Assembly: GCF_009192995.1 (NCBI RefSeq)
Contig: NZ_SDID01000009.1
Location: forward strand, 1 to 64,000
Source of the DNA: Sulfurimonas indica
GTDB lineage: Bacteria; Campylobacterota; Campylobacteria; Campylobacterales; Sulfurimonadaceae
DNA length: 64,000 bases
Direction of reading: 5' to 3'
Below the pieces are notes generated by a model, which did no database searches, had not been told where the DNA came from, and worked only from the letters and a program-made list of their open reading frames with translations. Positions 33,188 to 61,527 of this stretch are shown piece after piece. Each line of letters starts with the position of its first letter. Within the stretch, counting starts at the first letter, position 1. A program made the position numbers and the translations under genes.

Positions 33188-34122
33188 TGCAAAAAAGACT
33201 TCTACAGTGGTATGAAAAAAATGGTCGTCACGAACTTCCTTGGAGAAACACGACAAATATCTACCATATCTATCTCAGTGAGATAATGCTGCAACAAACG
33301 CAGGTCAATCGTGTAAGAGATGAGTACTATCCACAATTTCTGGCAAAATTTCCGACACTCAAGACACTTGCTGATGCACAAGAGAGTGAAGTGCTTGCTG
33401 CTTGGAGCGGTCTTGGCTACTACTCACGTGCACGCAATCTTCACAAAACAGCCAAACTCTGCGAAAATGAACTGCCTAAGAGCTATGAAGAGCTTCTGAA
33501 ACTTCCGGGAATCGGAAGCTATACGGCCAGTGCCATCTGTGCTTTTGGATACCATCAAAATCTTCCGGTCCTTGATACAAACATCAAAAGGGTCATTAAA
33601 CGCCTCTTCGCACTGATAAATCCAAGTGAAAAAGAGCTTACACGTCAAGCTGTAAAAGTGCTTAACGACAAAGAGCCACGTGCACACAACTTAGCACTAA
33701 TGGATTTAGGCTCCCTGGTTTGCCTGCCAAAAAATCCAAAATGCCAAGAGTGTCCGCTTACATCAGAGTGCCAGGGAAAAGAAGAACCAGAACTCTATAC
33801 ACAGACAAAAAAGACAAAATATGAGACGATGGAGCTCTTTTATGGTGTCTGCGTAAAGGATGATAAAATCACATTGGTAAAAACAGAGGGAAGTATGTAT
33901 AAAGGAATGCTTTCACTCCCCTGTGTTGACCCACTTGAAGATGATTTTCTTGTCAGTTTTAAACATGCCTATACAAAGTATCGTCTGAGTGTACACCTCT
34001 ACAGACTTGACGAAGCACCAAAAGATGCTATTTGGCTATCTTTAGAAGAGCTAGAGAGTGCACCTATCTCTTCTCTTGTTACAAAAGCACTTACTGCTTT
34101 AAATCTTAAAAAACTACCTTAA
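33187..34122 (+). CDS. mutY: A/G-specific adenine glycosylase
   Basis: A 311-residue MutY that removes adenine mispaired with 8-oxoguanine. It has the catalytic Glu in L-S-E-I-M-L-Q-Q-T-Q-V, the helix-hairpin-helix L-P-G-I-G-S-Y-T-A-S-A-I, the catalytic Asp in V-L-D-T-N-I-K-R-V, and the 4Fe-4S Cys pattern C-x6-C-x2-C-x5-C (C-L-P-K...C-Q-E-C...S-E-C). A short C-terminal NUDIX-like domain follows. It starts at the ABC stop and overlaps the convergent kinase gene by 17 nt. Confidence 0.95.
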   Translation: MQKRLLQWYEKNGRHELPWRNTTNIYHIYLSEIMLQQTQVNRVRDEYYPQFLAKFPTLKTLADAQESEVLAAWSGLGYYSRARNLHKTAKLCENELPKSYEELLKLPGIGSYTASAICAFGYHQNLPVLDTNIKRVIKRLFALINPSEKELTRQAVKVLNDKEPRAHNLALMDLGSLVCLPKNPKCQECPLTSECQGKEEPELYTQTKKTKYETMELFYGVCVKDDKITLVKTEGSMYKGMLSLPCVDPLEDDFLVSFKHAYTKYRLSVHLYRLDEAPKDAIWLSLEELESAPISSLVTKALTALNLKKLP

Positions 34123-35218
34123 AACTACTTCCTTTACCAAGTACTGATTTAACTTCGATCTTCATCCCAAAACTGTTACAGATCTGCTTGACAATGCTAA
34201 GACCCACACCAAAGCCACCGGCAATCTGTGAGTCTCGTTTGTACATCTCAAAGATCTCCTGCAGTTTTTTATCTTCAATACCTACACCCTCGTCTTGAAT
34301 GAAAAAATACTCCTGCGTGAGCTTTAGCGAAATTGTGGTCTCTGGCATAGAGTATTTGATGGCATTTGAAAGCAGGTTCGATACTAACAACTCTGCACGG
34401 CTCTCAATCATCTCAAGCTCTATATCTTCAAGCTCAGCTTCAATCTTTATGCCTTTTGCATCGGTGAGCTCTTTATAGTAAGCAAGTACATTTTGCACAA
34501 CTCTTTTAAAGTTTAACATCTCTGCCTCTTCTTGTTTTTGTTTGAAGTTTAAAAAGGTCAGTGATTTATAGATACTCTCTAACTGCTTGGTGCTTATTGA
34601 GATATTGGTCAATATCTTTTTGTCATAAACCTCTTTTTTTATTGCCCTGCTTGCAGACATCTTTAGTGCTGTGATGGGAGTATTTAGTTCATGTGAGACA
34701 TCCTGAATGAAACTCTCTATCTGTACCATTCTGTTGTGAAGCGGTTTTAAAAAAAGTTTGGAGAGTACAAAAGCGATAATAACGACAAGACCAAAACTAA
34801 GAACCATTACACTCAGTACCAAAGTCTGCAGATCTTCTAGCTTCTTGAAATATGTATCTGTTTTGACGACCACATACTTCACATCAAGATGCTCCTGCGG
34901 CGATGCGGAGACTAAGACCTTCATACCCTCTTTTTCATAGTAACCCGGCTTGTACTCTTGTGCTTTTTCTATTGGTATCAAACTATACTCAAACCCTTTT
35001 TCATTTGGCAACTCGAGTGTTGATCCTTTCATCTGTGCGTTGATAATGCTTGTAGAGAGCCTGTCTGCAATATGTTCGAGTTTATAGTAGATCTCACTCT
35101 CTAGCGCATTCTTCTGCGCACTGTAGTACCAATACCCAAGCAGCAAAATAAACAGCAGTGATGAGCCAAGATAAAGGGCTACAAAAGAGTAATATGAGCG
35201 TCTCTCTAACTCATTCAA
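34106..35218 (-). CDS. Sensor histidine kinase
   Basis: About 370 residues: membrane helix (about 12-33), a periplasmic domain of about 100 residues, a second helix (about 130-155), then the kinase. The phosphoacceptor sits in D-V-S-H-E-L-N-T-P near residue 175, with N-A-I-K-Y, D-E-G-V-G-I and G-G-F-G-V-G-L-S ATP boxes. TTG at 35218 follows GGAGG by 8 nt and overlaps the regulator stop, so I prefer it; TTG at 35248 is an alternative. It forms an operon with the OmpR-type regulator upstream. It may sense the copper conditions suggested by the nearby shared promoter boxes, which is an inference. Confidence 0.85.
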   Translation of the reverse strand: MNELERRSYYSFVALYLGSSLLFILLLGYWYYSAQKNALESEIYYKLEHIADRLSTSIINAQMKGSTLELPNEKGFEYSLIPIEKAQEYKPGYYEKEGMKVLVSASPQEHLDVKYVVVKTDTYFKKLEDLQTLVLSVMVLSFGLVVIIAFVLSKLFLKPLHNRMVQIESFIQDVSHELNTPITALKMSASRAIKKEVYDKKILTNISISTKQLESIYKSLTFLNFKQKQEEAEMLNFKRVVQNVLAYYKELTDAKGIKIEAELEDIELEMIESRAELLVSNLLSNAIKYSMPETTISLKLTQEYFFIQDEGVGIEDKKLQEIFEMYKRDSQIAGGFGVGLSIVKQICNSFGMKIEVKSVLGKGSSFKVVF

Positions 35219-35858
35219 ACTTATACCCCTCCCCACGAATGTTGACAATATGCTCTTTACCTATGTGTTTACGAAGGTTTTTGACAATGGTACGAATGGC
35301 ATCATCACTCGGCATCTCATCAAACTCCCAAAAATTCTGCAACAGTTCATCAGAGCTGATAATACGATGACGATTTTTGTAAAAGTAGTGCAGACATTCA
35401 CTCTCTTTTTGTGTGAGATGCACTGTTTTATCTTCCTGCGTGAGGCTGTGTGTTTTTGTATCTAAAACAAGCCCCTCCCCAAGTTCTACCAAACTCGCCA
35501 ATCCAAAATGCCGTTTGAGATTTTCAATACGTACACCCAACTCATCCAAATCAAAAGGTTTTTTGATAAAGTCATTTGCCCCTGCGCCAAAAGCAGACTT
35601 AAGATACTTTGTATCATGAAAAGCTGTGATAAAGATAGCAGGCGTCTCATCATGAAACTCACGCAGTTCACGCAAAAGAGAGATACCATCTCCATCAGCT
35701 ACATTAATGTCAAAGATATAAAGATCGAACTTCTGCTCTTCAGTAAGTGTAAGCGCTTTTTTCACACTGTAAGTCTGTACCACTTCATACTCATCTTCTA
35801 AGTAATCTACCAATATATTCGCTAAAGCCGTATCATCTTCAAGGAGTAAAATTTTCAT
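35211..35858 (-). CDS. OmpR/PhoB-family response regulator
   Basis: 215 residues. The receiver domain has the acid pair E7-D8-D9, phosphoacceptor D50 in Y-I-F-D-I-N, and the Lys of I-K-K-P-F near 102. The winged-helix DNA-binding domain follows, ending R-G-E-G-Y-K-F-E. It binds direct-repeat half-sites as a dimer, as the family does. Six promoters between 38439 and 58047 carry such repeats with constant spacing, so this regulator is the best candidate to bind them. The ATG lies 6 nt after a TGC-TACAAT box, so the message looks leaderless. Confidence 0.88.
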   Translation of the reverse strand: MKILLLEDDTALANILVDYLEDEYEVVQTYSVKKALTLTEEQKFDLYIFDINVADGDGISLLRELREFHDETPAIFITAFHDTKYLKSAFGAGANDFIKKPFDLDELGVRIENLKRHFGLASLVELGEGLVLDTKTHSLTQEDKTVHLTQKESECLHYFYKNRHRIISSDELLQNFWEFDEMPSDDAIRTIVKNLRKHIGKEHIVNIRGEGYKFE

Positions 35859-44874: not shown

Positions 44875-47800
44875 ATGATAGAAAAACTCATAGCGCTTAG
44901 CATCAAAAACAGATTTATCGTTCTGCTTGCTGCCCTTGCACTTGTTGGAGCTTCCATCTGGAGTATGAAGCACACGCCTCTTGATGCCTTACCTGATCTC
45001 TCACCTCCACAGGTAATCGTGCAAATTAACTGGGCGGGTCAATCTCCGGAGATTGTTGAAGATCAGGGGACCTATCCGCTTGTTGCACAGTTTTTGGCTA
45101 TTGCCAACATCGATACTGTTCGAGGATACTCTACCTATGAAAATGGGCTGATTTACATCATTTTTAAAGAGGGAACTGACCTCTACTGGGCAAGAAGTCG
45201 TGTACTTGAACAACTCGCTTCCATCCAGTCACAACTACCCAAAAATATGGATGTAGCTCTTGGTCCTGATGCAAGTGGAGTTGGTTGGGTCTATGAGTAT
45301 GCCCTCTCGTCAAAAACAAAAAACCTAGCCGAGCTTCGAACACTTCAAGACTACTACTACAAATATGCACTAATGGGTGTAGATGGAGTCAGTGAAGTTG
45401 CTAGTATCGGTGGATTTATTCCTACCTTTCAAGTTACTCTCAATAACGACAATCTTGTCCGTTATAACCTCAGCATTCAAGATATCGCCAAAGTATTAAA
45501 ACAAAACAATAACGATACCGGTGGCCGTATAGTGATACAAAATGGTTATGAGTGGATGGTTCAAGCCAAAGGCTATATCAAAAACCTTGATGATATCCGC
45601 GCTCTCGTTGTTACAACAAAAGGCGGTACTCCTGTAAAGCTTGGTGATATTGCTAGAGTTGAACTCACACCTGCACCGCGTCGTGGTCTAGCTGATTTAA
45701 ACGGTGAAGGTGAAGTAGTTGGCGGCATAGTTATGGCACGCTATGGCGAAGATGTTTACTCTATGATAAAACGCGTGCAAGAAAAAATGAAAGAACTTAA
45801 AGTTGAGGGTGTCGATGTCATCACTGTATATGACCGTTCAGGGCTTATTGACAAAGCTGTAGACACCTTAAAAGATACACTTATCGAAGAGAGTATCATT
45901 GTTGTTGTCATTATCGGTCTCTTTTTAATGCACTTTCGCTCCTCACTTATTGTCATCATTGTTCTACCACTTACAGTTGGTTTTACCTTTTTACTGATGA
46001 AACTCTTTGGTATTGGCTCAAACATCATGAGTCTTGGCGGTATTGCCATTGCCATCGGAGCGATGGTGGATGCAAGTATCGTTATGATAGAAAATGCCCA
46101 CAAAATGCTGCACAAGTTTGAGCATAAAGAGGGTAGGATGCCTACGGATAAAGAACGCATTGCAATCATTTTAAAATCATCACAACTTGTAGGTCGTCCT
46201 ATCTTTTTTGCACTCGCACTTATCGTTGTCTCTTTTTTACCAATCTTTGCACTCTCAGGTCAAGAAGGACTGCTCTTTACACCGCTTGCATTTACAAAAA
46301 CCTTTGCTATGGCTGCGGGCGCATTCCTCTCTATCACGCTAGTTCCCGTTCTTATGGTCTTTTTTGTCAAAGGGCGTATATTGCCAGAGTCTAAAAATCC
46401 ACTCAACAGATTTTTTATCTGGCTCTATCACCCCATCATCATCTATGGACTCAAACTCAAATATTTAGTCATAGTTTTAGTACTGCTCTCACTTGGCTAT
46501 ATGTACCCGCTCTATAAAAGTCTCAAATGGGAATTTATGCCGATGCTCAATGAGCAGACTTTTATGTATATGCCTGTTACTCCGTATGGTATCAGTATTG
46601 ACCAGAGTAAACAACTCTTACAAAAAACAGACAAAATTTTAAAATCTTTTCCTGAAGTTGAAAATGTCTTTGGAAAAGCAGGACGTGCAGGGACTGCAAC
46701 TGACCCGGCACCTCTTGGTATGCTTGAGACTATCATCACGCTTAAACCGCAAAGTGAGTGGCCAGAGAAAAAATCTTATGATGAGCTGCGTGAGGAGATG
46801 GAAGAAGCCCTGCAGATTCCGGGACTTACAAACTCATGGACCTACCCTATTCGTGGGCGTATTGATATGCTTCTCAGTGGTATCAGAACACCTATAGGGA
46901 TAAAACTCTACGGTATGGATGCTGCGGGACTGCAAAAGTTTGGTAAAAAGATAGAAGAGAAACTGCGCCAGTATGATAAAACACTCTCTGTCTTTGCCGA
47001 TCAGGCAAGTGCAGGGTATTACATCGATATCATCCCAGATGAGGAGAAGCTCTCCCGCTATGAGCTTACAAAAGACACTCTTCTTGAGTACACAGCCCTT
47101 GCAATCGGTGGTATGAAAGTATCTACAATGTATAAAGGACTAGAGCGTTATCCTATCTCTCTGCGTCTTGAAGAGGATGAGCGAAGAAGTCTGGAATCTA
47201 TTCGAAATATCCAGGTAAAAACAAAGCTTGGTTTTGTACCACTTGGCTCTTTGGCAGAAGTAGCATACCGACAGAGTGCATCTGTCATCAAAAGTGAAAT
47301 GGCTCAACCTGTAACATTTATCTACATTACTCCAAAAGAGGGAGTAAGCGCTACAGAGTATAAACTAGGTGCACAAAAGTTCATGAACGAGATAAAATTT
47401 GACCCAGGTTACTATATAGAGTGGGCAGGACAGTCTGAATATTTAGACTCTGCAATGCAGCGTATCATCTGGATAGTGCCTGCCGTTTTAGTCGTGATTT
47501 TCTTGCTTATCTATATGGCGCTTAAAAAGCTCGTACCAACCCTTATCGTCTTTTTTACGCTGCCGTTTGCTCTGCTGGGTGGGCTTATTTATATAGATAT
47601 GCTTAACTTTGCGATGAGTATTGCTGTTATTGTCGGTTTCTTGGCTCTACTTGGTGTAGCAGCTGAGACGGCAATAGTGATGATAATCTACCTCCAAGAG
47701 AGTGTGGATGAGTTAAAAGAAAAAAGAGGTTCTGCATTTAATCTTAAAGACTTAAATGCAGCCATCTATGAAGGTGCAGTTCAAAGAGTACGACCAAAAC

Positions 47801-48000
47801 TGATGACAGTTTTTGCAATCCTCGCAGGTCTTGCACCGATTATGTATACTCACGGAGTGGGAAGTGAAGTGATGCAGCGAATTGCTGCCCCTATGCTTGG
47901 AGGCGTTGTAAGTTCAGCTGTTCTCTCTTTGGTTATAATTCCGATACTCTATGAAATTTATATGAAAAAAGAGATTGAAAATGAAAAAACAGATATTTAA
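44875..48000 (+). CDS. cusA: Heavy-metal RND efflux pump (CusA-type)
   Basis: A 1041-residue inner-membrane pump of the HME-RND group. It starts R-F-I-V-L-L-A-A-L-A and has P-L-D-A-L-P-D-L-S-P-P-Q-V, helix 4 G-A-M-V-D-A-S-I-V-M-I-E-N-A-H-K with acidic residues, and Met-rich sites in the periplasmic loop (W-E-F-M-P-M-L-N-E, F-M-Y-M-P-V-T-P-Y-G). It expels Cu(I)/Ag(I) through CusB and CusC. It has RBS GGAAG and an upstream box. The HMA gene overlaps its 3' end. Confidence 0.95.
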   Translation: MIEKLIALSIKNRFIVLLAALALVGASIWSMKHTPLDALPDLSPPQVIVQINWAGQSPEIVEDQGTYPLVAQFLAIANIDTVRGYSTYENGLIYIIFKEGTDLYWARSRVLEQLASIQSQLPKNMDVALGPDASGVGWVYEYALSSKTKNLAELRTLQDYYYKYALMGVDGVSEVASIGGFIPTFQVTLNNDNLVRYNLSIQDIAKVLKQNNNDTGGRIVIQNGYEWMVQAKGYIKNLDDIRALVVTTKGGTPVKLGDIARVELTPAPRRGLADLNGEGEVVGGIVMARYGEDVYSMIKRVQEKMKELKVEGVDVITVYDRSGLIDKAVDTLKDTLIEESIIVVVIIGLFLMHFRSSLIVIIVLPLTVGFTFLLMKLFGIGSNIMSLGGIAIAIGAMVDASIVMIENAHKMLHKFEHKEGRMPTDKERIAIILKSSQLVGRPIFFALALIVVSFLPIFALSGQEGLLFTPLAFTKTFAMAAGAFLSITLVPVLMVFFVKGRILPESKNPLNRFFIWLYHPIIIYGLKLKYLVIVLVLLSLGYMYPLYKSLKWEFMPMLNEQTFMYMPVTPYGISIDQSKQLLQKTDKILKSFPEVENVFGKAGRAGTATDPAPLGMLETIITLKPQSEWPEKKSYDELREEMEEALQIPGLTNSWTYPIRGRIDMLLSGIRTPIGIKLYGMDAAGLQKFGKKIEEKLRQYDKTLSVFADQASAGYYIDIIPDEEKLSRYELTKDTLLEYTALAIGGMKVSTMYKGLERYPISLRLEEDERRSLESIRNIQVKTKLGFVPLGSLAEVAYRQSASVIKSEMAQPVTFIYITPKEGVSATEYKLGAQKFMNEIKFDPGYYIEWAGQSEYLDSAMQRIIWIVPAVLVVIFLLIYMALKKLVPTLIVFFTLPFALLGGLIYIDMLNFAMSIAVIVGFLALLGVAAETAIVMIIYLQESVDELKEKRGSAFNLKDLNAAIYEGAVQRVRPKLMTVFAILAGLAPIMYTHGVGSEVMQRIAAPMLGGVVSSAVLSLVIIPILYEIYMKKEIENEKTDI

Positions 48001-48934: not shown

Positions 48935-51109
48935 ATGAAAAATGAAGATAAAGAAAATCTCTACTGTGTAGATGATTCCTGTAAGATTGACAACACCTCT
49001 TATACATGCCCGATGCATCCTGAAATTATTCGCAATGAACCTGGGAATTGCCCAATCTGTGGTATGACTCTTGAGCCCATTACTGTGGAGGTAGATGAAA
49101 AAAACGATGAGCTTGATGATATGAGTAGACGTTTTTGGATCAGTACGCTTTTATCATTACCTCTTTTCTTACTTGCTATGATTCATGATATCACACCAGA
49201 GTATATTCCTGACTTTCTTACTGGCAAAATGATTCAGTATATTGAGTTTTTTCTTGCAACACCCGTCGTTTTATGGGGAGGCTGGCCTTTTTATGTCAAA
49301 GGGTATATCTCTATCAAAACATGGAACTTAAATATGTTCACATTAATCTCCATGGGGGTAGGAGCTGCTTATATCTATAGTCTTGTTGCACTATTTTTAC
49401 CAACAATTTTCCCACCACTTATGCAAACAAAAGAGGGTTTGGTACATGTTTACTTTGAAGCAGCTGCAGTAATTACTACTCTTGTACTTTTAGGGCAGGT
49501 TTTAGAACTGCGAGCAAGAAGTAAAACAAATACAGCCATCAAAGAACTCCTCAACCTTGCTCCTAAGAAAGCTCATCGGATTATTAATGCAAAAGGCGAC
49601 GAGGAGGATGTTAATCTTGAACTTGTTCATATCGAAGACAAACTTCGTGTGAAACCAGGAGAGAAGATTCCCGTTGACGGTATTGTCATAGAGGGACAGA
49701 GTAATGTTGATGAATCTATGATAACAGGTGAGCCTGTGTTGGTACAAAAAGCCAGTGGAGATACACTTATAGGGGCTACTATCAATAAAAATGGCACACT
49801 CATTATGGAAGCAACAAAAGTAGGAAGTGATACTTTGCTTGCTCAAATCGTGCAAATGGTTGCCCAAGCACAACGTTCACGTGCACCAATTCAACAGCTT
49901 GCAGATACAGTCTCGGGATATTTTGTTCCTGCAGTTGTAATCTCTGCAGTTCTTGCTTTTATAGGATGGTTTATCTGGGGGCCATCACCACAACTCGCCT
50001 ATGCTGTAGTTGCGGCTGTTTCCGTTTTAATTATTGCCTGTCCCTGTGCACTTGGACTTGCCACTCCAATCTCCATCATGGTTGGAACCGGTCGAGCGGC
50101 ACTTTCAGGAATCCTCATCAAAGATGCAAAAACTTTGGAGAGAATGGAAAAAGTTGATACTTTGGTTGTCGATAAAACAGGAACGCTTACACTCGGGAAA
50201 CCAAAAGTAACTGATTTTATAGTGACTGATGATTTTGGAAAAGATATACTTTTGCAATATGCAGCCTCCATTGAACGTGCGAGTGAGCACCCTCTTGCAC
50301 AGTCTGTTATTGACTTTGCGAAGGAATCCAATATCTCTCTTATAAGTGTCAATGATTTTGAGGCAATACCTGGAAAAGGAGTTATAGCAACAATAGAAGA
50401 ACAAAAAATTTTACTTGGCAGCGAGAGCTTCTTAAAAGAGAACAATATTGATATAGCAGTGATTAAAGAAACAGCTGATGCTATGCGAAGAGATGCAAAA
50501 GGAATTATATTTATGGCAATTAACGGTCAATATGCCGCTATTCTTGCCATTGAAGATCCGATAAAAGAGACTTCTGTTGAAGCCGTGAAAAGACTCACAG
50601 AAGAAGGTATCACTGTTGTGATACTTAGTGGGGATAATGAAACAACTGCCAATGCAGTAGCTAAAAAACTCTCAATTTCCAAAATATATGCCAATGTTCT
50701 ACCGGACGAAAAAGCAGAAGTCGTTAAAGAGCTTCAGGCCAAAGGAGCCATTGTGGCAATGGCAGGTGATGGTATCAATGATGCTCCGGCTCTTGCACAA
50801 GCTGATGTAGGCATTGCTATGGGTACTGGAACGGATGTTGCCATAGAGAGTGCCGGTGTGACCCTAATAAAAGGAGATCTGTTAGGCATTGTAAAAGTAC
50901 TGAAGCTCTCTCGGGCTACTATGAAAAACATACGACAAAATCTCTTTTTCGCATTTATCTATAACAGTTTAGGAGTACCGGTTGCCGCTGGTGTGCTTTA
51001 TCCATTCTTTGGAATTGTGCTCTCTCCTATTATTGCGGCGGCAGCTATGAGTTTCAGTTCTGTTTCTGTTATAGCCAATGCCTTACGTCTTAAAAATACA
51101 AAACTCTAA
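48935..51109 (+). CDS. copA: Copper-exporting P1B-type ATPase
   Basis: 724 residues. The N-terminus has a metal-binding domain, T-C-P-M-H-P-E-I (about 24) and C-P-I-C-G-M near 46, rather than an HMA domain. The P-type core has M-T-G-E-P-V, the metal site C-P-C in A-C-P-C-A-L-G near 369, phosphorylation motif D-K-T-G-T-L-T near 412, H-P-L-A near 450 and G-D-G-I-N-D-A-P near 611. It pumps Cu(I) into the periplasm. AGG precedes ATG. It lies in the box-3 operon. Confidence 0.95.
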
Positions 51110-51119
51110 AAGGAAAAAT

Positions 51120-51500
51120 ATGAAAATATTCTTACTGGCAATTTCTATTTTACTTCTGCTTTTAAGTGGATGCAGTGATGAAAAAGGTGCTAAGGAATCT
51201 ACAGCACCCGGTATGAAATGTGGTGCAGGAAAGTGTGGTGCAAATATGTTTGATGGGAATGCAGCACTTGCTAAAAAGAAAAAAAATATTCTTAAGCAAA
51301 TGAGAGAAGATGATCCTCGAAAAGATTGTGTACTTCAAGCCAGAACGACAAAAGCAACCTATGGCTGCGTGAGAGACCCAAAAACAAAGAAAATGACACT
51401 GAAGTGTGGAGAAGGTAAATGTGGAACCGCCATGAAAGCACCAAAACCTGCAATGAAATGTGGTGTCGGTAAATGTGGTAGTGGAGAGAGTGGTATGTAA
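51120..51500 (+). CDS. Lipoprotein with C-G-x-G-K-C-G repeats (HvfA-like)
   Basis: 126 residues. Signal peptide with lipobox L-L-S-G-C near residue 18, then three Cys repeats: K-C-G-A-G-K-C-G, K-C-G-E-G-K-C-G and K-C-G-V-G-K-C-G. A helical segment with two other Cys sits between repeats 1 and 2. E-G-K-C-G is the motif of HvfA and bufferin-type peptides, whose Cys are modified by MNIO (DUF692) enzymes; no such enzyme is seen here. It ends the copA operon, suggesting copper binding. I use ATG 51120 after AAAAGGAAAAAT rather than a longer frame from 51078. Confidence 0.8.
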   Translation: MKIFLLAISILLLLLSGCSDEKGAKESTAPGMKCGAGKCGANMFDGNAALAKKKKNILKQMREDDPRKDCVLQARTTKATYGCVRDPKTKKMTLKCGEGKCGTAMKAPKPAMKCGVGKCGSGESGM

Positions 51501-52957: not shown

Positions 52958-54619
52958 CTATTGTTTTACATCAAGTACTTTTTTTATGGCATCTGCTACA
53001 CGAAAAGAGTTCGCATAAATCGTCCATGTATAAGGGACACTTCCCCCTGTTGGCATAAAAGAGGCATCTGTAACATAAAGGTTCTCTAAGTCATGTGCTT
53101 TGCAGTTTTTATCTAAAACGGAACTTTTTGCATCATTACCGAAACGGCATCCCCCTGCAACCAAATTTGGAGGTGGAGAAGCCGAGATATCATAATCTAT
53201 CTCTACAGCGCCCATCTCACGCAGTACTTTTACGGCCTTTTGTGCCAAATATTCACCGACTTCTAAATCATGTGGATGTCCATAGAGATTAATCACACCA
53301 ACGGGCACACCATACTTGTCTTTTGCCTTCTTATCAACACTTACAAAACACTTATCTGTCGGCAACCAGTCATTAAAGACCTCAAAGGTTAGTACCCGTG
53401 AAGTAGTAAGACGTTTTTGCACTTTTTTAGCCAGTGCCTCACCCCACATGAGATTGCCATGATTATCATAAACCTCACGCATGACACGAGAAATAATATT
53501 TTGATGCTCAAAGAGAAAATCTATAGTTCCCCCTTTTTGCTTTCTCTTGCCATCTTTATAATCGTACCACTGTTGCAGACTTCGGTTAAAAAAAACACCC
53601 ACTTCCATCAGCTCTTTTTGTTGTGCTTGCGTAAGCTTTTCAAATACAAAACGCCCACTGCCGCTTCCCCCGGCAGAGAAAATAAGGTTTTTCCCGACCT
53701 CTTTGCTTGAATTTGCCAAACCATTTGGGAAAAACTTATTTGTAGAGTTCAGTAGCAGTCGTGAGCTCTCTATCGCCTGTGCTGCCAAAACAAAGATCTT
53801 TGCTCGTATGACATGGACAGCTCCCAACCTTGTTTTATAGTAAGCTTTCCTTACTCTTTTGTCATCACTCTCCAGTTTATAGACAAAAGCATCCGTAATG
53901 ATTCTCGCTTTACACTTCTGTAGCAGTGCTGCCCTTGCACTCCCCTTTGCTCCACTTGCACAACCATAAGAGCCACAAAAGTTAGAGTAGTAACAGCCAT
54001 TACGTGAGAGAGCATTTTGAGAAAGAATGGCTCGCGGTGTCGGTATCGATTCAAATCCAAGCTGCTCACATGCCGCATCAAACCATTTAACTGCACCATT
54101 GATAGTAAGTTCCAGATATGGAAAATCTACACTAGAGCGCGGTTCCTGCTGAGAATGATTTACAACTCTTCCACTCACACCGATAATCTTTTCCACTTTT
54201 GTATAGTAAGGTTCCAAATCTTCATATGATATCGGCCAATCCACTACATTGGCACCTTCTATCGCACCATAAGTAGAAAGAAGTTTAAAATCATTTGGCT
54301 TAAGACGATGAAAATAACCGCTCATCAGATTCGATGAACCTCCAACCATATTCCCATTCCAAAAACTCCAATGATACTCCCGTCCATCATAACGTTTGTA
54401 TGTACCATCTTTTTGATACTCATTGATGATATGAAACTCATCTTCAAGTTTTGGAGTAAAGATATCTCTGCGTGAGACAGCAAGCTCATCCTTGTTAAAA
54501 TCAGCTTCGGTATAATTTTTTCCTTTTTCAAGTACTACAACCTCAAACCCAGCAAGACTTAGCTCATAGGCAATTGGTGCTGCTCCCGCACCACTGCCGA
54601 TAATACACACATCAACCAA
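52958..54619 (-). CDS. GMC-type FAD oxidoreductase
   Basis: About 553 residues with an FAD-binding N-terminus (V-C-I-I-G-S-G-A-G-A-A-P-I-A-Y-E), V-L-E-K-G-K, G-G-S-S-N-L-M, a Cys-containing region (G-C-Y-Y-S-N-F-C-G-S-Y-G-C-A) and a C-terminal Y-V-T-D-A-S-F-M-P-T-G-G-S-V-P. The last is the GMC C-terminal signature, with H-P-H-D-L replacing the usual active His-Asn pair region. TTG 54619 has AAGGAG 7 nt upstream and is preferred; GTG 54649 is alternative. It forms a pair with the Tat-exported subunit upstream. Substrate unknown. Confidence 0.85.
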   Translation of the reverse strand: MVDVCIIGSGAGAAPIAYELSLAGFEVVVLEKGKNYTEADFNKDELAVSRRDIFTPKLEDEFHIINEYQKDGTYKRYDGREYHWSFWNGNMVGGSSNLMSGYFHRLKPNDFKLLSTYGAIEGANVVDWPISYEDLEPYYTKVEKIIGVSGRVVNHSQQEPRSSVDFPYLELTINGAVKWFDAACEQLGFESIPTPRAILSQNALSRNGCYYSNFCGSYGCASGAKGSARAALLQKCKARIITDAFVYKLESDDKRVRKAYYKTRLGAVHVIRAKIFVLAAQAIESSRLLLNSTNKFFPNGLANSSKEVGKNLIFSAGGSGSGRFVFEKLTQAQQKELMEVGVFFNRSLQQWYDYKDGKRKQKGGTIDFLFEHQNIISRVMREVYDNHGNLMWGEALAKKVQKRLTTSRVLTFEVFNDWLPTDKCFVSVDKKAKDKYGVPVGVINLYGHPHDLEVGEYLAQKAVKVLREMGAVEIDYDISASPPPNLVAGGCRFGNDAKSSVLDKNCKAHDLENLYVTDASFMPTGGSVPYTWTIYANSFRVADAIKKVLDVKQ

Positions 54620-55106
54620 GGTAAGGCTCCTTCGGTCGTGGCAGGCCACCTGTAAACTTCAGCCATTCCCAACCGGCTTGCTTATTGTTCCCACCATATA
54701 CAGGGTCTCCAAGCATTGCTTCAAACATATAACCCATCACATCATACAAAAAGCTCTCTCCCCATTCTGTTTTAGATATTATCTGCAAAATTGCTTCTCG
54801 CTCTTTGGATGAAAGCTTTTTATACTCTTTCTTGTATCCTATTATTGCCTCTTCATTAAGCCACTTAATACCGTTTTTTATAAAGTCTTTGTCTGCTTTG
54901 GAAATTTTTGGATGGTTAAAAACAACAGTCATATATGAAGCTGTTTCAATGCCAAGTGCTTGTGCTTTAGGAAAGAGGTCTTGGTGCAATACTCTCAGTG
55001 TCTCGATAGGTGTAGTTACTCCAAACAAAGAGCATCCGTCCATCAAAAACAGAGCACCAAATAAAAAACTCGATTGTAAGAATCTTCTACGAGAAAAGGT
55101 TGTCAA
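54612..55106 (-). CDS. Gluconate 2-dehydrogenase subunit 3-like, Tat-exported
   Basis: 164 residues. Twin-arginine signal S-R-R-R-F-L-Q followed by a hydrophobic stretch ending in a lipobox-like M-D-G-C. The mature part has helical pairs including H-Q-D-L-F-P-K-A and G-E-S-F-L-Y-D-V-M-G-Y-M-F-E-A-M-L-G-D-P-V-Y-G-G-N. That matches the gluconate 2-dehydrogenase subunit 3 family, small partners of GMC dehydrogenases that are carried by the Tat route. TTG start at 55106. A cytochrome subunit is not seen nearby. Confidence 0.85.
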   Translation of the reverse strand: MTTFSRRRFLQSSFLFGALFLMDGCSLFGVTTPIETLRVLHQDLFPKAQALGIETASYMTVVFNHPKISKADKDFIKNGIKWLNEEAIIGYKKEYKKLSSKEREAILQIISKTEWGESFLYDVMGYMFEAMLGDPVYGGNNKQAGWEWLKFTGGLPRPKEPYLG

Positions 55107-55272
55107 AGAAGGAACCTTTTTTCTTTGGAGTATAGGCTTCTATTCCCTCATCCACAAAATCAGGATCACCTTTTTCAAACTCTCTCTGCGAGACTTTTTT
55201 TATATGTTTTTTCGGTTTTGTTTCTACATAACCGTTATCTTTTGAGCTCATGACTCCATAAGGAATACACAT
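55087..55272 (-). CDS. Small hypothetical protein, first gene of the GMC operon
   Basis: 61 residues. ATG 55272 is preceded by AGGAGG at ideal spacing, which decides the start over the ATG at 55251. It begins M-C-I-P-Y-G-V and then is Lys/Glu-rich and likely disordered (K-P-K-K-H-I-K-K-V-S, Y-T-P-K-K-K-G-S-F-F-D-N-L-F-S). No signal peptide, unknown function. It overlaps the Tat gene by 20 nt and carries the copper-box promoter at 55302-55331. Confidence 0.65.
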   Translation of the reverse strand: MCIPYGVMSSKDNGYVETKPKKHIKKVSQREFEKGDPDFVDEGIEAYTPKKKGSFFDNLFS

Positions 55273-55301: not shown

Positions 55302-55331
55302 ATTATACAAAAGTTTTGTGTATCTTCTGTG
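55302..55331 (-). promoter_or_regulatory. Copper-regulon promoter box 4 (GMC operon)
   Basis: On the minus strand: CACAGAA (55331-55325), 4 nt, CACAAAA (55320-55314), 6 nt, TATAAT (55307-55302). Same 7-4-7-6 spacing as the other boxes. Confidence 0.65.
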
Positions 55332-55353
55332 TACTTACCATCCTACAGCAATA

Positions 55354-57105
55354 TTAATCGACAAGTGCTTCTACAAAATAACAGTCAACATCCATATAGG
55401 TCTTTCCGGTCTGATCCTTAAAAATCAGTTTGCTTTTGTCAAGTTTTGCAAGTTCATCAACACCGACAACTGCTAAAAGCTGTCGTATTCCTGCTAAGAG
55501 CTGTGCATGATATGAGGCAATGTTTCTTGCTTTTTTCTCAACTAAAAAAGAAGCACGTTTTTTCTTATCTTGTGTAGCAAGTCCAACAGGACAGGATCGG
55601 CCATATGCACCTGAACACTCACGCGCTCGTATACATCCGGCACTCATCATAAAAGCCCTTGCAATCGCTACATAGTCAGCACCAAGCCCAAAGAGTACGA
55701 TAGCATCATCCGGAGTAAGTACTTTCTCACTCGCAATAATTTTCACCTTCTCTCTAACACCTGCCTCATGCAATGCACTCTCAACGATATAGAGTGCTTT
55801 TGCTATTGTCATACCTACACTCATCATCATCTCTAAAGGTGCTGCACCACTTCCGCCATCGCCACCGTCAATGGTTAAAAAATCAGGATAGGCATCAGAG
55901 TTCTGCTGCACTCTTTTTTGAATGAGACTTGCATACTCTGCAAAGTTCTCTTTGGATGAGATGACAATTTTCACACCGACAGGTTTGTCGGAGAGTTTTT
56001 TGAGCCTGCCTACAAAATCAAATAGCTCCTCCAAGCTGTTTGCAAAGGGAAATTTATTTGGAGAGAAGAGATCTTTATGTGCCTCTACACCACGATAATA
56101 CGCTATCTCCTCACTCACCTTCTCTGCTAAAAGTCTCCCACCTGTCTGTTTAGCACCCTGTGCCATTTTTATCTCAGTCATACGGCAAAAACGCATTGTC
56201 TTTTTATAACGCTCTTCATCAAAGTTACCATCAGTATCTCTGACACCGTAAAGACCGCTTCCAATTTGTAAAATAGTATCAGGAATATCATCGGGGATTT
56301 CAGAAGGAAAAACATCAAGAGGTGCACTCCAGTCCACTCTGTAAAAAAGTATCTCTTCTTTGTCAAAAAGATAGCTGTCAGCAGCACCACAGAGGACTAC
56401 CATATGTCTGTAGACTTTTTGTGCTATTGCACCGTTAAGCAAAAATTTTAAAGTTTTATAGACACTTTTGGCAAAAAACGTACCCTCATATATCTCAAAA
56501 AATTTGCACTCTCTTGTATATTTATGAGTGTATAAAAAGTTTGAAGTAAAACCGCCTTCTCCTGTGTTGATAGGAAATCTACCAAGATAAGCTCCCTTTG
56601 TAAAAGCTCGTGTTCCCTCAGGTGAGATTGCACCATCGCTCATAGCACTTCTGCCAAAAACAGAATGCGTTACAAAAGGCTTTGGAGAGTTTTCTCCAAA
56701 AGTAACAGAAAAGTTATTACTGACATCTTCGGTATTTAAAACACAGTTGGCATTTTTAATGGCAAGTCGTGCACTCTTTTGCGGTTGTCCCGGGGAAAAT
56801 GAAGCGTAGGCAGATCTTCTCTCAGCTGAATCATAAACCCACTTAACCTTATCAAAGGAGTCATAGAACTGTTCATCTCCAAAATATTGTCGCATTGGAT
56901 TACGCAAAGCATAAAAGAGATAGCGCAATCTTCCGATAAGCGGATAGTTGATAAGCAGTTGATTCTCTCTTTGAATATATCTATCATAGATAAAAATTAC
57001 AATAGAGAGAGCCAGAATGAGAATGACAAATGCCTTCATCAAAAACATCATAATGGGAAAATTGATATGTCCTATCTTATGTGTAAACTCTACTAACTCT
57101 TCCAT
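55354..57105 (-). CDS. FMN-binding glutamate-synthase-like protein
   Basis: 583 residues. One membrane helix near the N-terminus (about 16-38) anchors a large FMN/TIM-barrel domain of the glutamate synthase central/FMN family: G-V-K-I-V-I-S-S-K-E, D-G-G-D-G-G-S-G-A-A-P, I-I-A-S-E-K-V-L-T-P-D-D, G-A-D-Y-V-A-I-A-R and a Cys cluster R-A-R-E-C...C-P-V-G-L-A-T-Q that could bind an iron-sulfur centre. No glutaminase domain. Its real reaction is unknown. It lies 4 nt after doxX. Confidence 0.85.
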   Translation of the reverse strand: MEELVEFTHKIGHINFPIMMFLMKAFVILILALSIVIFIYDRYIQRENQLLINYPLIGRLRYLFYALRNPMRQYFGDEQFYDSFDKVKWVYDSAERRSAYASFSPGQPQKSARLAIKNANCVLNTEDVSNNFSVTFGENSPKPFVTHSVFGRSAMSDGAISPEGTRAFTKGAYLGRFPINTGEGGFTSNFLYTHKYTRECKFFEIYEGTFFAKSVYKTLKFLLNGAIAQKVYRHMVVLCGAADSYLFDKEEILFYRVDWSAPLDVFPSEIPDDIPDTILQIGSGLYGVRDTDGNFDEERYKKTMRFCRMTEIKMAQGAKQTGGRLLAEKVSEEIAYYRGVEAHKDLFSPNKFPFANSLEELFDFVGRLKKLSDKPVGVKIVISSKENFAEYASLIQKRVQQNSDAYPDFLTIDGGDGGSGAAPLEMMMSVGMTIAKALYIVESALHEAGVREKVKIIASEKVLTPDDAIVLFGLGADYVAIARAFMMSAGCIRARECSGAYGRSCPVGLATQDKKKRASFLVEKKARNIASYHAQLLAGIRQLLAVVGVDELAKLDKSKLIFKDQTGKTYMDVDCYFVEALVD

Positions 57106-57109
57106 CTAC

Positions 57110-57550
57110 TTAGCTTTTCTCTCCAAAGATAATTCTGTCAAGTGAAAATCTTCCCGCACCGTGTGCTATAAAGATAATCAAAAAGAGCATATAGTAAAGC
57201 GGTATCTCAAAACCGTTATTACCTGCCTCAAAACCATTAGGAAGGTGTACAGTTACAATAGCCACTATCATAATAACAATCAGTGGAATGGAGATAAGAC
57301 GTGTCAAAAATCCAAACGTTAAAAGTACTACACCTATTATCTCTGTAGTTGCTGCCATATAAGCATTGAGCGTTGGGAAAGGTATACCGATAGAGCCAAA
57401 CCATTCAGCAACAGAGCCTATATCACTCCACTTCATCATAGCCGGTTGGTAAAATCCATAAGCAACAACAAGCCGTGCTAGTAACAAACTGACAGACTGC
57501 AGATACTCGCTCAAACGGGAAAACTCTAAATAAATTTTTTTGATATTCAT
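57110..57550 (-). CDS. DoxX-family membrane protein (HvfX-like)
   Basis: 146 residues with four membrane helices, family motifs A-R-L-V-V-A-Y-G-F-Y-Q-P-A, E-I-I-G-V-V-L-L-T-F-G-F and H-G-A-G-R-F-S-L-D. DoxX proteins accompany MNIO-type Cys-peptide clusters (HvfX) and other redox genes. Here it lies downstream of the Cys-repeat gene at 57689 and has its own copper box. GAAGGAG precedes ATG. Role unproven; electron transfer or peptide handling is possible. Confidence 0.85.
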   Translation of the reverse strand: MNIKKIYLEFSRLSEYLQSVSLLLARLVVAYGFYQPAMMKWSDIGSVAEWFGSIGIPFPTLNAYMAATTEIIGVVLLTFGFLTRLISIPLIVIMIVAIVTVHLPNGFEAGNNGFEIPLYYMLFLIIFIAHGAGRFSLDRIIFGEKS

Positions 57551-57577
57551 AATAAACTCCTTCGTTTATAAAAGATA

Positions 57578-57607
57578 AGTCTACCTTTTATTTGTGTAGG
57601 AAGTGTG
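57578..57607 (-). promoter_or_regulatory. Copper-regulon promoter box 5 (doxX operon)
   Basis: On the minus strand: CACACTT (57607-57601), 4 nt, CACAAAT (57596-57590), 6 nt, TAGACT (57583-57578). Confidence 0.6.
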
Positions 57608-57630
57608 TAGAAGATTTTAGAAGCAAGGTA

Positions 57631-57668
57631 TAGACTTCTTGCTTATCTATAATTATGCAAGAAGTCTA
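57631..57668. repeat. 12-bp inverted repeat between the Cys-repeat gene and doxX
   Basis: TAGACTTCTTGC at 57631-57642 and GCAAGAAGTCTA at 57657-57668 are perfect complements with a 14-nt AT-rich gap. It could be a weak terminator for the 57689 gene or an operator. No T-run follows on the minus strand. Confidence 0.5.
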
Positions 57669-57688
57669 ATAGGGGAAGTAATATAACT

Positions 57689-57937
57689 CTATTTGTTACC
57701 GCCACATTTACCGACACCGCACTTCATAGCTTTTTTCTTTGCTTTTTTTGCATCGCCGCACTTTTTCGCCTCTGCTTTATCCATTTTAGCACCACACTTC
57801 ATCTTCTTAACCGGCTTTTCCATTTTAGAACCACATTTTCCAGCTCCACACTTCATGCCCTCTGCACTCGCAGTTGTTCCAAATCCTACAAAAAAAGCCG
57901 CTGCTAAAAGCATTGCTGCTACATTTAATCTTTTCAT
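57689..57937 (-). CDS. Secreted protein with C-G-x-G-K-C-G repeats (HvfA-like)
   Basis: 82 residues. Signal peptide (about 1-25, ending A-S-A-E-G), then K-C-G-A-G-K-C-G, K-C-G-A-K, K-K-C-G-D and K-C-G-V-G-K-C-G-G-N-K. The mature protein is almost only Cys, Gly, Lys, Met, Ala, so it is likely a metal-binding or modified peptide. I use ATG 57937 with AAGGATGAG upstream; a longer frame to 57976 lacks support. It shares the motif with the gene at 51120 and has a copper box. Confidence 0.8.
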   Translation of the reverse strand: MKRLNVAAMLLAAAFFVGFGTTASAEGMKCGAGKCGSKMEKPVKKMKCGAKMDKAEAKKCGDAKKAKKKAMKCGVGKCGGNK

Positions 57938-58017: not shown

Positions 58018-58047
58018 ATTTTATAGAAATAGTGTGTAGTATTTGTG
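58018..58047 (-). promoter_or_regulatory. Copper-regulon promoter box 6 (Cys-repeat gene)
   Basis: On the minus strand: CACAAAT (58047-58041), 4 nt, CACACTA (58036-58030), 6 nt, TAAAAT (58023-58018); TATAAA also overlaps. Leads a UTR of about 75 nt. Confidence 0.6.
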
Positions 58048-58156
58048 TAATGGTGTATAATTAGATAATTTATTTAAAGGCTTCCCTATTCTATCAAAAA
58101 AAGAGACTCTTCAAGAGCAATTCAAAAACTTTTACAAAGAACACAAACCAAAAAGC

Positions 58157-58942
58157 ATGGAAGATGCAGTAGAGAAATTTGCCATCTTTGGAGGTGTTTC
58201 CTGGGGGGAAATCGATACTTCCAAACCATCTTTTGAGCTTATTGAGAAGCTTATTTTGGATGATTACTCCTACATTCGTAACGATATCAATGAACTTACA
58301 GATGGGCAACCACTTTACCACTCTATTCTCACAGCTATTGCACTGAGTGATGGTAAAGCTCATGCGGTCTATAAACGTGCCCATGTTGAAGAGAGTGTTG
58401 GAGAAAAAGCAGTTGAGACGCTTCTTGAGCGTGGACTTATTCGGTTCAAACGCTCTAAAGGTGCAGATGACAGATTTAGCTTTACGTTGCCCTTTTTACG
58501 TTTTTGGTTTGCCTTTGTATCACCTCTTTTTAAAGGGATTCGTGATGGAGAGTACAAAGAGGTAAAAGAGCGTTGGCAAAGTTACGAAAATGAGTTTACC
58601 CATCCTATTTTTACAGAGCTCTCACACGCACTTCTGCGAAAAAAACTCAAAGATGACTCCATTATGGAGATATCAGAGTATTGGAAAAATGATGGTCTTA
58701 CACTCGACATCTATGCGAAAACAAAAGGCAAAAAGCGTATAATCGGCTCATGTAAATATACAAACTCCAAAATAAAAAAGAGTGAACTTTCAAAGCTTGC
58801 AGAACTTGCACAAAAAGCAAATATTGATGCCGATATGCTTGTTATCGTTGCTAAAACAGGTTTTTCAAAAGAGCTAAAAGCACTCAAAAATGAAAACCTA
58901 AGACTCTATACACTCAAAAACTTTAAAGAACTACTGGGCTAA
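58157..58942 (+). CDS. DUF234-type protein, 5'-truncated ATPase relative
   Basis: 261 residues. It resembles the C-terminal half of archaeal-type ATPases: winged helix, E-R-G-L-I-R-F, R-F-S-F-T-L-P-F-L-R-F-W, then the DUF234 nuclease-like end with L-T-L-D-I-Y-A-K-T-K and I-I-G-S-C-K-Y. The P-loop half is absent. The frame stays open upstream to TAA at about 58058 with no ATG, so the gene probably lost its 5' end. Expression is uncertain: there is no promoter or strong RBS. Confidence 0.7.
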   Translation: MEDAVEKFAIFGGVSWGEIDTSKPSFELIEKLILDDYSYIRNDINELTDGQPLYHSILTAIALSDGKAHAVYKRAHVEESVGEKAVETLLERGLIRFKRSKGADDRFSFTLPFLRFWFAFVSPLFKGIRDGEYKEVKERWQSYENEFTHPIFTELSHALLRKKLKDDSIMEISEYWKNDGLTLDIYAKTKGKKRIIGSCKYTNSKIKKSELSKLAELAQKANIDADMLVIVAKTGFSKELKALKNENLRLYTLKNFKELLG

Positions 58943-58945
58943 AGA

Positions 58946-60964
58946 ATGAAGCTTTTACATAAACTTTTACTTGGATATATTCTAATTATTATTTTTATTG
59001 GTTCCTTTTCAACGCTATTGCTAATCTATACAATAGACAAAAACTCCTCTTATCTTGTAGCATACAGAGAAAGAGAAACTACCTCCTTTGTAAAAGTCCT
59101 CAATGCTGTTATTCTTGAAAAGAACAAACTTAAAGATACACAAACTATTCAAAAGCTTTTTGATGAAACAGTAGAAAAACTTCCTCATGTAAAACGTTTA
59201 ACATTACATGTACAAAATCCTGAAAATGGGCATTTTAAGCCTATCGTCAGTACTGTTAGAAAATATTTGCAGATACCTTCTCATCAAGAAGATATTGATG
59301 CAATACTTTATAAGAAAACAACACTTTTATATGAAAAGGGTAAAAATGGAGGACAGTTACTTGATATAACCTATCCCATTACTGATAACAATCTCAAAGC
59401 TATAGCAGCAATAGGGGCTACTGTTTCACTTTATGAATCAGACAAAGTTCTTGCGAACGCAATTCAAAAAATGAAAGAAGATACGCTATACAACATCCTT
59501 TTAATTATTATGACTGCTTTGATTCTCTCCCTTATTATCGGTCTACTTGTTATACGTAAAATTATCTCCCCTTTACATACTTTAAAAAATGCTATTGGAT
59601 CTTTTTCAAAACAAGAGTTTACTCCAATTGAAATAGCTTCCAATGATGAAATAGGAGAGTTAGCAGCCACATTTAATATTATGGCTGATGAACTTCATAT
59701 ACTGTACAATTCAATGCAAGAACAGATAGATATAAAAACAAAAGAACTCCAAACACAATATCTTGTTGACTCACTAACAACTCTGCCAAATAGAAATGCC
59801 CTTTATGAAGATATGAAAAAATTCTCATCTTTTCATCTGGCAATTTTAGATGTCGCATCATTTAGAGATATTAATGACTCCTATGGTGTTGATATAGGGA
59901 ACCGTGTTTTACAAGTTTTGGCACAAAAAATAAAATTCTATCTTGATAATACACAACTTAAGATATATCGACTTGGTGGTGATGAAATAGCCATTATCAA
60001 CTATGAATATAATGCAAAAAAGTTTGTTCAAATTATCCAACAGCTTATTAAAAGCCTTGAGCATGAAACAATTTACTTTGAGGATAAAGATCTTGAAATT
60101 AATGTTTCCCTGCATGCGGGAATATCTTTAAATCAAAAGTCTGCACTTGAACATGCCAATATCGCTTTACTAGAAGCTAAAAAAAGCTATGTTGATTTAC
60201 GTGTTTTTAATGAAAAAACTCATACTGAAGATATACAAATACAAAATTTGAAAATGATTAAAAAAATTAAAGATGCTGTTAATCATGATAATTTTATAGC
60301 CTATTACCAGCCTATTCTTAATAAACAAAAAGAGATTGTTAAATACGAAGCACTTGTACGCATGCAATATAATCATGAAATATTATCACCTAACAGTTTT
60401 ATTGATATTGCTAAAAAAACCAAGTATTATAAATATATTACACGTAGTATTATCGCTCAAGCTTTTCAAGAGTTTAAATCATCAACACTCTCCTTTTCGA
60501 TAAATATATCAGGGGATGACCTTATCAACCAAGAAACATTTGGTTTTATCCAGTATCATTTAGAAAATTTTTCAGATACTTCTCGTGTCATCTTTGAAAT
60601 TGTAGAGAGTGAAGATATTCATCATCTTCCAAACCTTCAAAAATTTATTGCACTCATAAAAAAACATAATGCAAAAATTGCCATCGACGATTTTGGGACT
60701 GGTTACTCTAACTTCTCTTATCTCTTAGATTTAGAGCCTGATTATATCAAGATAGATGGCTCTTTAATTAAAAATATAGATCACGATGACAAGTCTTACA
60801 ATATAGTAAAAACAGTTGTATCTTTTGCCCATACACTTAATATCAAGGTTATTGCAGAGTTTATTCACTCCAAAGAAGTACTTGCAGTTTGTGAAAGTTT
60901 AGGTATTGATGAGTTCCAAGGATACCTCTTTGGTGAACCATCTCTTACAATAGTCTCAAAATAA
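58946..60964 (+). CDS. Membrane GGDEF/EAL signalling protein
   Basis: 672 residues. Membrane helix 1 (about 8-28), a periplasmic sensor (about 30-180), helix 2 (about 185-208), HAMP (about 210-265), GGDEF (about 275-430), EAL (about 440-672). The GGDEF motif reads L-G-G-D-E-I, so cyclase activity is doubtful. EAL motifs Y-Y-Q-P, Y-E-A-L-V-R, D-D-F-G-T-G-Y-S and E-F-Q-G-Y-L-F are kept. It is likely a phosphodiesterase of cyclic di-GMP. It starts 4 nt after the DUF234 gene. Confidence 0.88.
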   Translation: MKLLHKLLLGYILIIIFIGSFSTLLLIYTIDKNSSYLVAYRERETTSFVKVLNAVILEKNKLKDTQTIQKLFDETVEKLPHVKRLTLHVQNPENGHFKPIVSTVRKYLQIPSHQEDIDAILYKKTTLLYEKGKNGGQLLDITYPITDNNLKAIAAIGATVSLYESDKVLANAIQKMKEDTLYNILLIIMTALILSLIIGLLVIRKIISPLHTLKNAIGSFSKQEFTPIEIASNDEIGELAATFNIMADELHILYNSMQEQIDIKTKELQTQYLVDSLTTLPNRNALYEDMKKFSSFHLAILDVASFRDINDSYGVDIGNRVLQVLAQKIKFYLDNTQLKIYRLGGDEIAIINYEYNAKKFVQIIQQLIKSLEHETIYFEDKDLEINVSLHAGISLNQKSALEHANIALLEAKKSYVDLRVFNEKTHTEDIQIQNLKMIKKIKDAVNHDNFIAYYQPILNKQKEIVKYEALVRMQYNHEILSPNSFIDIAKKTKYYKYITRSIIAQAFQEFKSSTLSFSINISGDDLINQETFGFIQYHLENFSDTSRVIFEIVESEDIHHLPNLQKFIALIKKHNAKIAIDDFGTGYSNFSYLLDLEPDYIKIDGSLIKNIDHDDKSYNIVKTVVSFAHTLNIKVIAEFIHSKEVLAVCESLGIDEFQGYLFGEPSLTIVSK

Positions 60965-60975
60965 AGGATCTTCTC

Positions 60976-61527
60976 ATGTATAAAAAAATTTTACTGCTTC
61001 ATGGTTGGGGAGGAAGTGATTTTCCTCATTGGCAGAGCTGGCTTGCAGGTGAATTGGCACGTGATTATGGCTGTGTAAATTTTTTGCGTTTTTGGGATTT
61101 TGACAATCCTAAACTTGATATCTGGTTGCGTGAGCTTCAAGATGCACTACAAGATTTCAGACCCGACATTGTTATCTGTCACTCTTTGGCAAATACACTT
61201 TGGTTTCATCTTTGTGCGAAAAAAGAGCTGCGTGAAATAGAAAAACTCTACCTGGTTGCACCACCTAGTTTGAATTGCACTATTACAGAATTAAGTGAAT
61301 TTTTTCCTGTAGATATACCGCCAAATCTTTATGCCAAAGAAACACTGCTTATTACCTCAACAAATGACCCTTATATGACCCAAAAAGAGGCAAATGATTT
61401 AGAGAAAAAGCTAAACATTCCTATGAAAGTTATACAAAACGGTGGTCATTTAAATGCAGACAGCGGTTATGGTCAGTGGGAGTGGATGCTTCAAGAGTTA
61501 AAAGCTGTTACCACATCTCACGCATAG
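60976..61527 (+). CDS. RBBP9/YdeN-like alpha/beta hydrolase
   Basis: 183 residues. L-L-H-G-W-G-G-S near the N-terminus, the nucleophile elbow V-I-C-H-S-L-A-N (Ser near 73), Asp in S-T-N-D-P-Y and His in G-G-H-L-N. The fold and length match the RBBP9 group of small serine hydrolases. Substrate unknown. AAAGGA precedes ATG. It overlaps the convergent small gene by 10 nt. Confidence 0.9.
   Translation: MYKKILLLHGWGGSDFPHWQSWLAGELARDYGCVNFLRFWDFDNPKLDIWLRELQDALQDFRPDIVICHSLANTLWFHLCAKKELREIEKLYLVAPPSLNCTITELSEFFPVDIPPNLYAKETLLITSTNDPYMTQKEANDLEKKLNIPMKVIQNGGHLNADSGYGQWEWMLQELKAVTTSHA

Follow-up and report, generated by a model that had tools for sequence, protein, structure and literature searches.

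We analysed a stretch of 64,000 nt of the Sulfurimonas indica genome (contig NZ_SDID01000009.1, positions 1 to 64,000; hereafter the window), in which a small exported peptide rich in K-C-G motifs is encoded upstream of a DoxX-type membrane protein (Table 1). The initial annotation had picked out this pair, and its description of an exported Cys-repeat peptide was sound: all six Cys of the 82-aa product stand in K-C-G context, forming two perfect KCGxGKCG units (KCGAGKCG and KCGVGKCG) and two single KCG, and shuffling of the mature residues gave a mean of 0.36 KCG and never reached six in 20,000 shuffles. The extent given to the cluster was too small, as p61, GA3 and GMC carry it down to position 52958; the promoter boxes, the DsbD link and the second KCG-repeat protein had likewise gone unnoticed. 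The window as a whole is a copper island, with CusC, CusB, CusA, a heavy-metal domain protein and CopA read from the translations. Between 38499 and 48000 on the plus strand, ~3.8 kb lie between YtkA-cusC-cusB and cusA, occupied by a transposase fragment, a DNA methylase and genes of the AAA type and of MFS; in the related loci L208 and L100, for example, cusB stands directly next to cusA.

Table 1. Features of the peptide cluster, its copper surroundings and the response regulators on the same contig. Coordinates refer to the window except where a contig is named.
Feature	Coordinates	Strand	Remarks
Box TACACA-AATAC-TACACA, N9, TAAAAT	58033..58049	-	upstream of the peptide
Box TACACA-CTTCC-TACACA, N9, TAGACT	57593..57609	-	upstream of HvfX-FMN; weak -10
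Box TACACA-GAAGA-TACACA, N9, TATAAT	55317..55333	-	upstream of p61-GA3-GMC
Exported KCG-repeat peptide, HvfA-family precursor-like	57689..57937	-	82 aa; Sec-type signal
Stem-loop	57631..57668	-	12-pair stem directly 3' of the peptide stop; z -3.5
HvfX-family DoxX membrane protein	57110..57550	-	146 aa, no Cys
FMN-A, membrane-anchored glutamate-synthase-type FMN/[3Fe-4S] protein	55354..57105	-	583 aa; PF01645, 211 bits
p61, small Lys-rich protein	55087..55272	-	opens the third transcription unit
GA3, gluconate-2-dehydrogenase subunit 3 / hitchhiker subunit	54612..55106	-	PF13618 over cut-off
GMC flavodehydrogenase	52958..54649	-	PF00732/PF05199 over cut-off
Second KCG-repeat protein, lipoprotein	51120..51500	+	LLSGC lipobox; immediately 3' of copA
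CopA-type copper P-ATPase	48935..51109	+	by reading the translation
CusA-type RND pump	44875..48000	+	by reading the translation
OmpR-type response regulator and kinase	34106..35858	-	by reading; kinase a 43% paralogue of the peptide-adjacent pair in relatives
OmpR-type regulator	C52:65758-66420		nearest candidate to act on the box; paired with kinase C52:66395-67555

The proposed likeness to HvfA and HvfX was borne out by the curated family models. The peptide narrowly passes NCBIfam NF050137, the HvfA family with its KCGxxKCG repeat domain (20.7 bits, cut-off 19.5), and fails the HvfA equivalog NF050188 (10.8 bits, cut-off 95), while the DoxX protein clearly exceeds the cut-off of the HvfX model NF050144 (125.8 bits against 80). 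A fold search with the HvfX structure model (pLDDT 92) gave no significant match to solved structures, the best E being 1.6. The EGKCG motif is absent from the peptide, in which the contexts are AGKCG, VGKCG, MKCG and KKCG only. The E before GKCG is mostly missing from the MNIO-linked peptides of the family as well, and these also read A-KCG-A-GKCG; the residue before GKCG was thus rejected as a marker of an MNIO substrate. No Pfam match to DUF2282 (Bufferin Buf1) was found in the peptide, and our literature search found nothing on Sulfurimonas copper peptides. The second KCG-repeat protein, a lipoprotein, has a conserved middle, ANMFDG...KKKNIL.QMREDDPRKDCV...YDCVRDP, common to a dozen relatives near cusA/HMA genes, and apparently belongs to a family not yet described, which has no separate box.

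Known hvf clusters contain the enzyme MNIO (HvfB) and a DUF2063 partner (HvfC), and both had been noted as missing from the window. This absence extends to the whole 2.09-Mb genome, rated 100% complete, in which Pfam model searches found no MNIO (PF05114) and no DUF2063 (PF09836); no DUF692 gene elsewhere could be paired with the peptide, and the suggested modification by a distant enzyme can be dismissed for any MNIO/DUF2063 enzyme that these models detect. It also holds for most of the family Sulfurimonadaceae, where MNIO occurs in 16 of 200 genomes and DUF2063 in 14, every one of these also with MNIO. HvfX scores above its curated cut-off in 92 of the 200 genomes, with MNIO in 13 and absent from 79; the HvfA-family repeat model matches in 64, with MNIO in 13 and absent from 51. 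Single-contig genomes are among those lacking MNIO, and the absence is clade-wide, no local accident. A survey of fully assembled genomes counted 67 of 2583 EGKCG-precursor genomes without MNIO and deemed such precursors rare and perhaps non-functional (PMC12452194); the two figures come from other gene models and other sampling and are comparable in the contrast of scale alone.

That published view would permit a relic here, with a peptide and an HvfX that no longer function after the loss of MNIO-HvfC. The peptide frames are intact and the Cys mostly kept in K-C-G across ~70 relatives, so the peptide is no decaying remnant; as dozens of genomes also have promoters and partner genes dedicated to the cluster, we consider a relic highly improbable. 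Modification by an unrelated, unlinked enzyme outside PF05114 is very unlikely too: the genome-wide search covered MNIO and DUF2063 only, but no candidate was seen, and the constant neighbours are accounted for by the genes of the cluster.

FMN-A starts 4 bp past the HvfX stop. It shares with GltB, the alpha subunit of glutamate synthase, the PF01645 domain and a three-Cys [3Fe-4S] motif, and it matches 1ea0/2vdc at 6e-20. Unlike GltB, the 583-aa protein has no amidotransferase domain by Pfam, and the long N-terminal helix of its structure model (pLDDT 76) reads as a membrane anchor. The [3Fe-4S] Cys 491, 497 and 505 are invariant in 28 sequences and the flavin loop GGDGGSGAAP is nearly invariant; judged by these residues, FMN-A is an active-looking enzyme. 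Named relatives of the gene are mostly from Sulfurimonas, and the family matches fall into two groups, A with 63-81% identity (together with three broken or partial genes) and B with up to 57%. By coordinates, HvfX lies within 1 kb of 38 of the 39 subfamily-A genes as opposed to none of the 98 subfamily-B genes (Fisher 4e-33, a guide only, as the genomes are related), a further departure from GltB in that the HvfX-linked subfamily is distinct from an unlinked paralogue in the same genomes. In nearly every case among named genomes, FMN-A starts -17 to ~40 bp past HvfX. FMN-A is therefore a specific, dedicated partner of HvfX, and the earlier remark on the FMN protein as a noteworthy neighbour was well placed. 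The paralogous FMN-B of this genome (G000:C19:12262-13941; L268:4248-5987) is present as a single copy in about half of the family genomes, lies amid apparent housekeeping genes (HisS-, Tmk- and CoaD-like by reading) and never adjoins HvfX. In some Sulfurovum-type MAGs (L161, L186, L189), HvfX genes stand tandem or divergent in pairs before the FMN gene.

HvfX adjoins FMN-A in 38 cases and MNIO in nine, and both in none. This mutual exclusion beside HvfX, together with the active-looking state of FMN-A, is what would be expected if HvfX-FMN, with or without the GMC/hitchhiker pair, modified the KCG Cys in place of MNIO-HvfC and used the peptide signal as a leader. The signal itself bears on this replacement maturation. 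Its mean pairwise identity is 0.55, against 0.31-0.41 for other export signals of the genus (CusB, CusC, the hitchhiker subunit and the KCG lipoproteins), and it is nearer the consensus in genomes that have HvfX (p 0.007, uncorrected and from related sequences, with a consensus drawn mainly from such genomes). As HvfBC use the HvfA signal in the manner of a leader (PMC13419390) and the signal here is unusually conserved, it may still be read by something. The genomes, however, do not make FMN-A a general requirement, since HvfX comes without FMN-A at many MNIO-less peptides, and at some neither of the two adjoins. At the genome level, moreover, the anticorrelation between MNIO and FMN-A is weak (2/38 against 11/54, p 0.07). 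We know of no peptide modification by glutamate-synthase-type FMN domains, and overall we regard such a replacement of MNIO-HvfC, the leading alternative to the plain-thiol reading given below, as rather doubtful.

In the HvfX tree, the FMN-A label occurs in clades of long HvfX (~170 aa) and in those of short HvfX (~146 aa), and its distribution takes at least six changes on branches with good support, so the pairing was gained or lost repeatedly; MNIO takes at least four. The tree has 148 columns and 85 rows, and its deep forks are poorly resolved and give no direction of MNIO loss or gain.

The third transcription unit encodes a dehydrogenase pair of known type. GA3 carries an RRRFLQ Tat-type signal and a lipobox-like Cys, with no sequence match among solved sequences, and the nearest solved relative of GMC is the catalytic subunit of an FAD glucose dehydrogenase (6a2u, 1e-56). 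In Burkholderia this subunit contains a [3Fe-4S] cluster and has a hitchhiker protein as its partner (PMC6719666). The pair of GMC and Gluconate_2-dh3 proteins, with the Tat-type signal on the small subunit, is shared with the Burkholderia FAD-GDH and with Campylobacter Cj0414-Cj0415; the operon here differs in having no cytochrome c subunit and in its linkage to the KCG peptide. Within the genus, GA3-GMC lies at most 5 kb behind HvfX and/or the KCG peptide at 46 of 64 loci (29 with both, 12 with the peptide alone, five with HvfX alone), the stretch ending before HvfX or the peptide was reached at the remaining 18. In other genera of the family this applies to only 2 of 26 loci. Linkage of the pair to the cluster is genuine within the genus but is no general rule.

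Each of the three transcription units of the cluster is preceded, in an intergenic gap and on the reading strand, by a direct repeat TACACA-N5-TACACA. The window holds three exact copies, with 0.4 expected even when one mismatch is allowed, and the 2.09-Mb genome holds five, three of them in the cluster. Among relatives, the box was found before 25 of 67 MNIO-less peptides, 14 of 82 HvfX genes and 7 of 22 p61 genes, compared with 5 of 1488 other genes and none of seven peptides followed by MNIO; these counts are descriptive, as the box was discovered on part of the same data. The nearest to an independent check is a count in eight relatives (~18 Mb), though genomes picked for having the cluster, in which 16 of 22 exact sites fall in the cluster and a reversed control pattern gave three. 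Most outlying sites in relatives (G001, the site shared by G115 and G137, G150 and G170) stand before unrelated genes or inside genes and were dismissed as background. The box is a genus-level feature: in other genera, the corresponding genes almost always lack it.

A TANNAT hexamer lies exactly 9 nt downstream of the box at 54 of 62 unique sites, and the direct repeat, its 11-bp period and the fixed distance to the -10 match what is expected of an OmpR-type regulon. In promoters of the OmpR/PhoB type, such geometry is expected where the response regulator replaces the -35 contact. Scans for consensus promoters and terminators returned no more matches than in shuffled sequences. Behind the peptide stop, most MNIO-less relatives have hairpins at the same place as the stem-loop here, unrelated in sequence with the strong stem kept, as against 0-12 bp at this place in MNIO clusters; the hairpin may set peptide output above that of the downstream genes. 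Divergent from the peptide, here (58157-61527, plus strand) and in many relatives, lie DUF234-type, GGDEF/EAL-like and alpha/beta hydrolase-like genes without a box.

Beyond the cluster, the genome carries the box, with TATAGT 9 nt downstream, 44 nt before a gene for DsbD (DsbD_N, DsbD_TM and thioredoxin). The operon it precedes (G000:C1:170352-175094; L267:353-5094) encodes DsbD, a dCache sensor, an OmpR-type regulator and a kinase, coupling a regulator to a periplasmic reductase. In the relative G137, a box lies some 280-340 bases upstream of DsbD with no -10 at the usual distance; with one site in this genome and one relative with an atypical site, the DsbD link is a limited one. The fifth copy in the genome (G000:C1:97416-97432) stands ~40 nt before an exported Lcl_C-domain protein. 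In relatives, the box is found before operons of an outer-membrane factor, CusB and CusA, at L208 and L100 before the whole cus operon and at L220 with a YtkA gene first, and before multicopper oxidases (L097, L243). These other box-carrying genes point, by their predicted functions, to copper and thiols. The idea that the box is common to the cusA, copA and KCG lipoprotein genes of this genome was rejected, no exact site being found before CusA, CopA or the lipoproteins; because these genes lack it, it is the relatives and the gene content that suggest copper as the signal.

At L089 and related loci, the genes of an OmpR-type regulator and a kinase lie divergent to the peptide gene. The orthologous kinase of this genome, C52:66395-67555, is 63% identical (at C52:66413-67549) and lies, together with its regulator, ~8.5 kb away on the same contig, just outside the window. 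Helicobacter CrdRS, from the same phylum, is likewise a two-component system linked with resistance to copper, its CrdR site being described as 21 nt (PMC9927306); the two are likened by type, not by orthology or box sequence.

The separate boxes of peptide and HvfX in the genus leave room for HvfX-FMN(-GMC) as a general membrane electron-transfer module for oxidative or sulfur stress, co-regulated with the copper peptide and never touching it. A DoxX homologue elsewhere guards against oxidative or sulfur stress (PMC12452194), and HvfX-FMN occurs without a peptide nearby at L111, L135, L138, L142, L146 and L148. HvfX nevertheless constantly adjoins peptides of this type, both here and in clusters with MNIO, and we hold a module of this kind to be unlikely.

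Known systems place the cluster close to, and outside, the modified peptides. With the HvfABCX/oxazolin (5-thiooxazole) RiPP clusters of Haemophilus type it shares a KCG-repeat peptide exported by Sec and, next in order, a DoxX protein of the HvfX family; it differs in the lack of HvfB and HvfC from the genome, in AGKCG, VGKCG and MKCG instead of EGKCG, in the extra FMN-A and GMC/hitchhiker genes, and in response-regulator-type boxes, one of them for HvfX itself. By the criteria tested, MNIO, its partner and EGKCG, it falls outside the oxazolin RiPP clusters, and by analogy it may well serve copper protection as they do. The Bufferins (Buf1 with DUF2282, Buf2) and GIG operons also combine a copper-linked exported Cys-rich peptide with DoxX, but the cluster here has no DUF2282 match and no MNIO, and no ECF sigma/NrsF genes were seen adjoining.

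Taken together, this genome has the peptide, HvfX, the FMN/[3Fe-4S] partner and the GMC/hitchhiker pair in one place, MNIO and DUF2063 are absent from it, and the three promoters have one box in common. We favour, at a probability of about 0.45, an MNIO-independent branch of the HvfA/HvfX copper-protection cluster that would form a copper-stress regulon and hold Cu(I) on unmodified thiols. An OmpR-type regulator, with C52:65758-66420 as the candidate, would bind the box and switch on transcription, and the peptide would be induced together with the efflux machinery. Sec would export the peptide, whose unmodified Cys thiolates would buffer periplasmic Cu(I); DsbD, and perhaps the HvfX-FMN membrane pair, would donate reducing equivalents that keep these thiols reduced, and the GMC pair would act as a periplasmic respiratory-type dehydrogenase serving the same stress response. 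The plain-thiol part is weakened by the conserved peptide signal, since this is what an enzyme-read leader would show, and a peptide of reduced thiols would not obviously need a flavin enzyme of the synthase type. Tentatively, HvfX and FMN-A, with GMC, might provide a so far unrecognised MNIO-independent maturation or redox service for exported Cys-rich copper peptides under a new Campylobacterota box. Between an unmodified peptide and a different maturation system, two of the options first proposed for this locus, the genomic evidence decisively favours neither.

As judged from the genomes, the cluster is a real, clade-wide variant of HvfA/HvfX that lacks the defining enzyme and has an FMN partner of its own, together with a regulon box not recognised before. 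The 51 of 64 precursor genomes without MNIO mostly keep HvfX, dedicated partners and promoters, which would make the job of HvfX separable from MNIO chemistry. The NCBIfam names "oxazolone/thioamide-modified RiPP" and "RiPP maturation protein" may accordingly be wrong for MNIO-less members throughout the clade. The box defines a directly testable regulon, and the cluster would be a natural system in which to study the role of HvfX and whether such peptides function with plain thiols.
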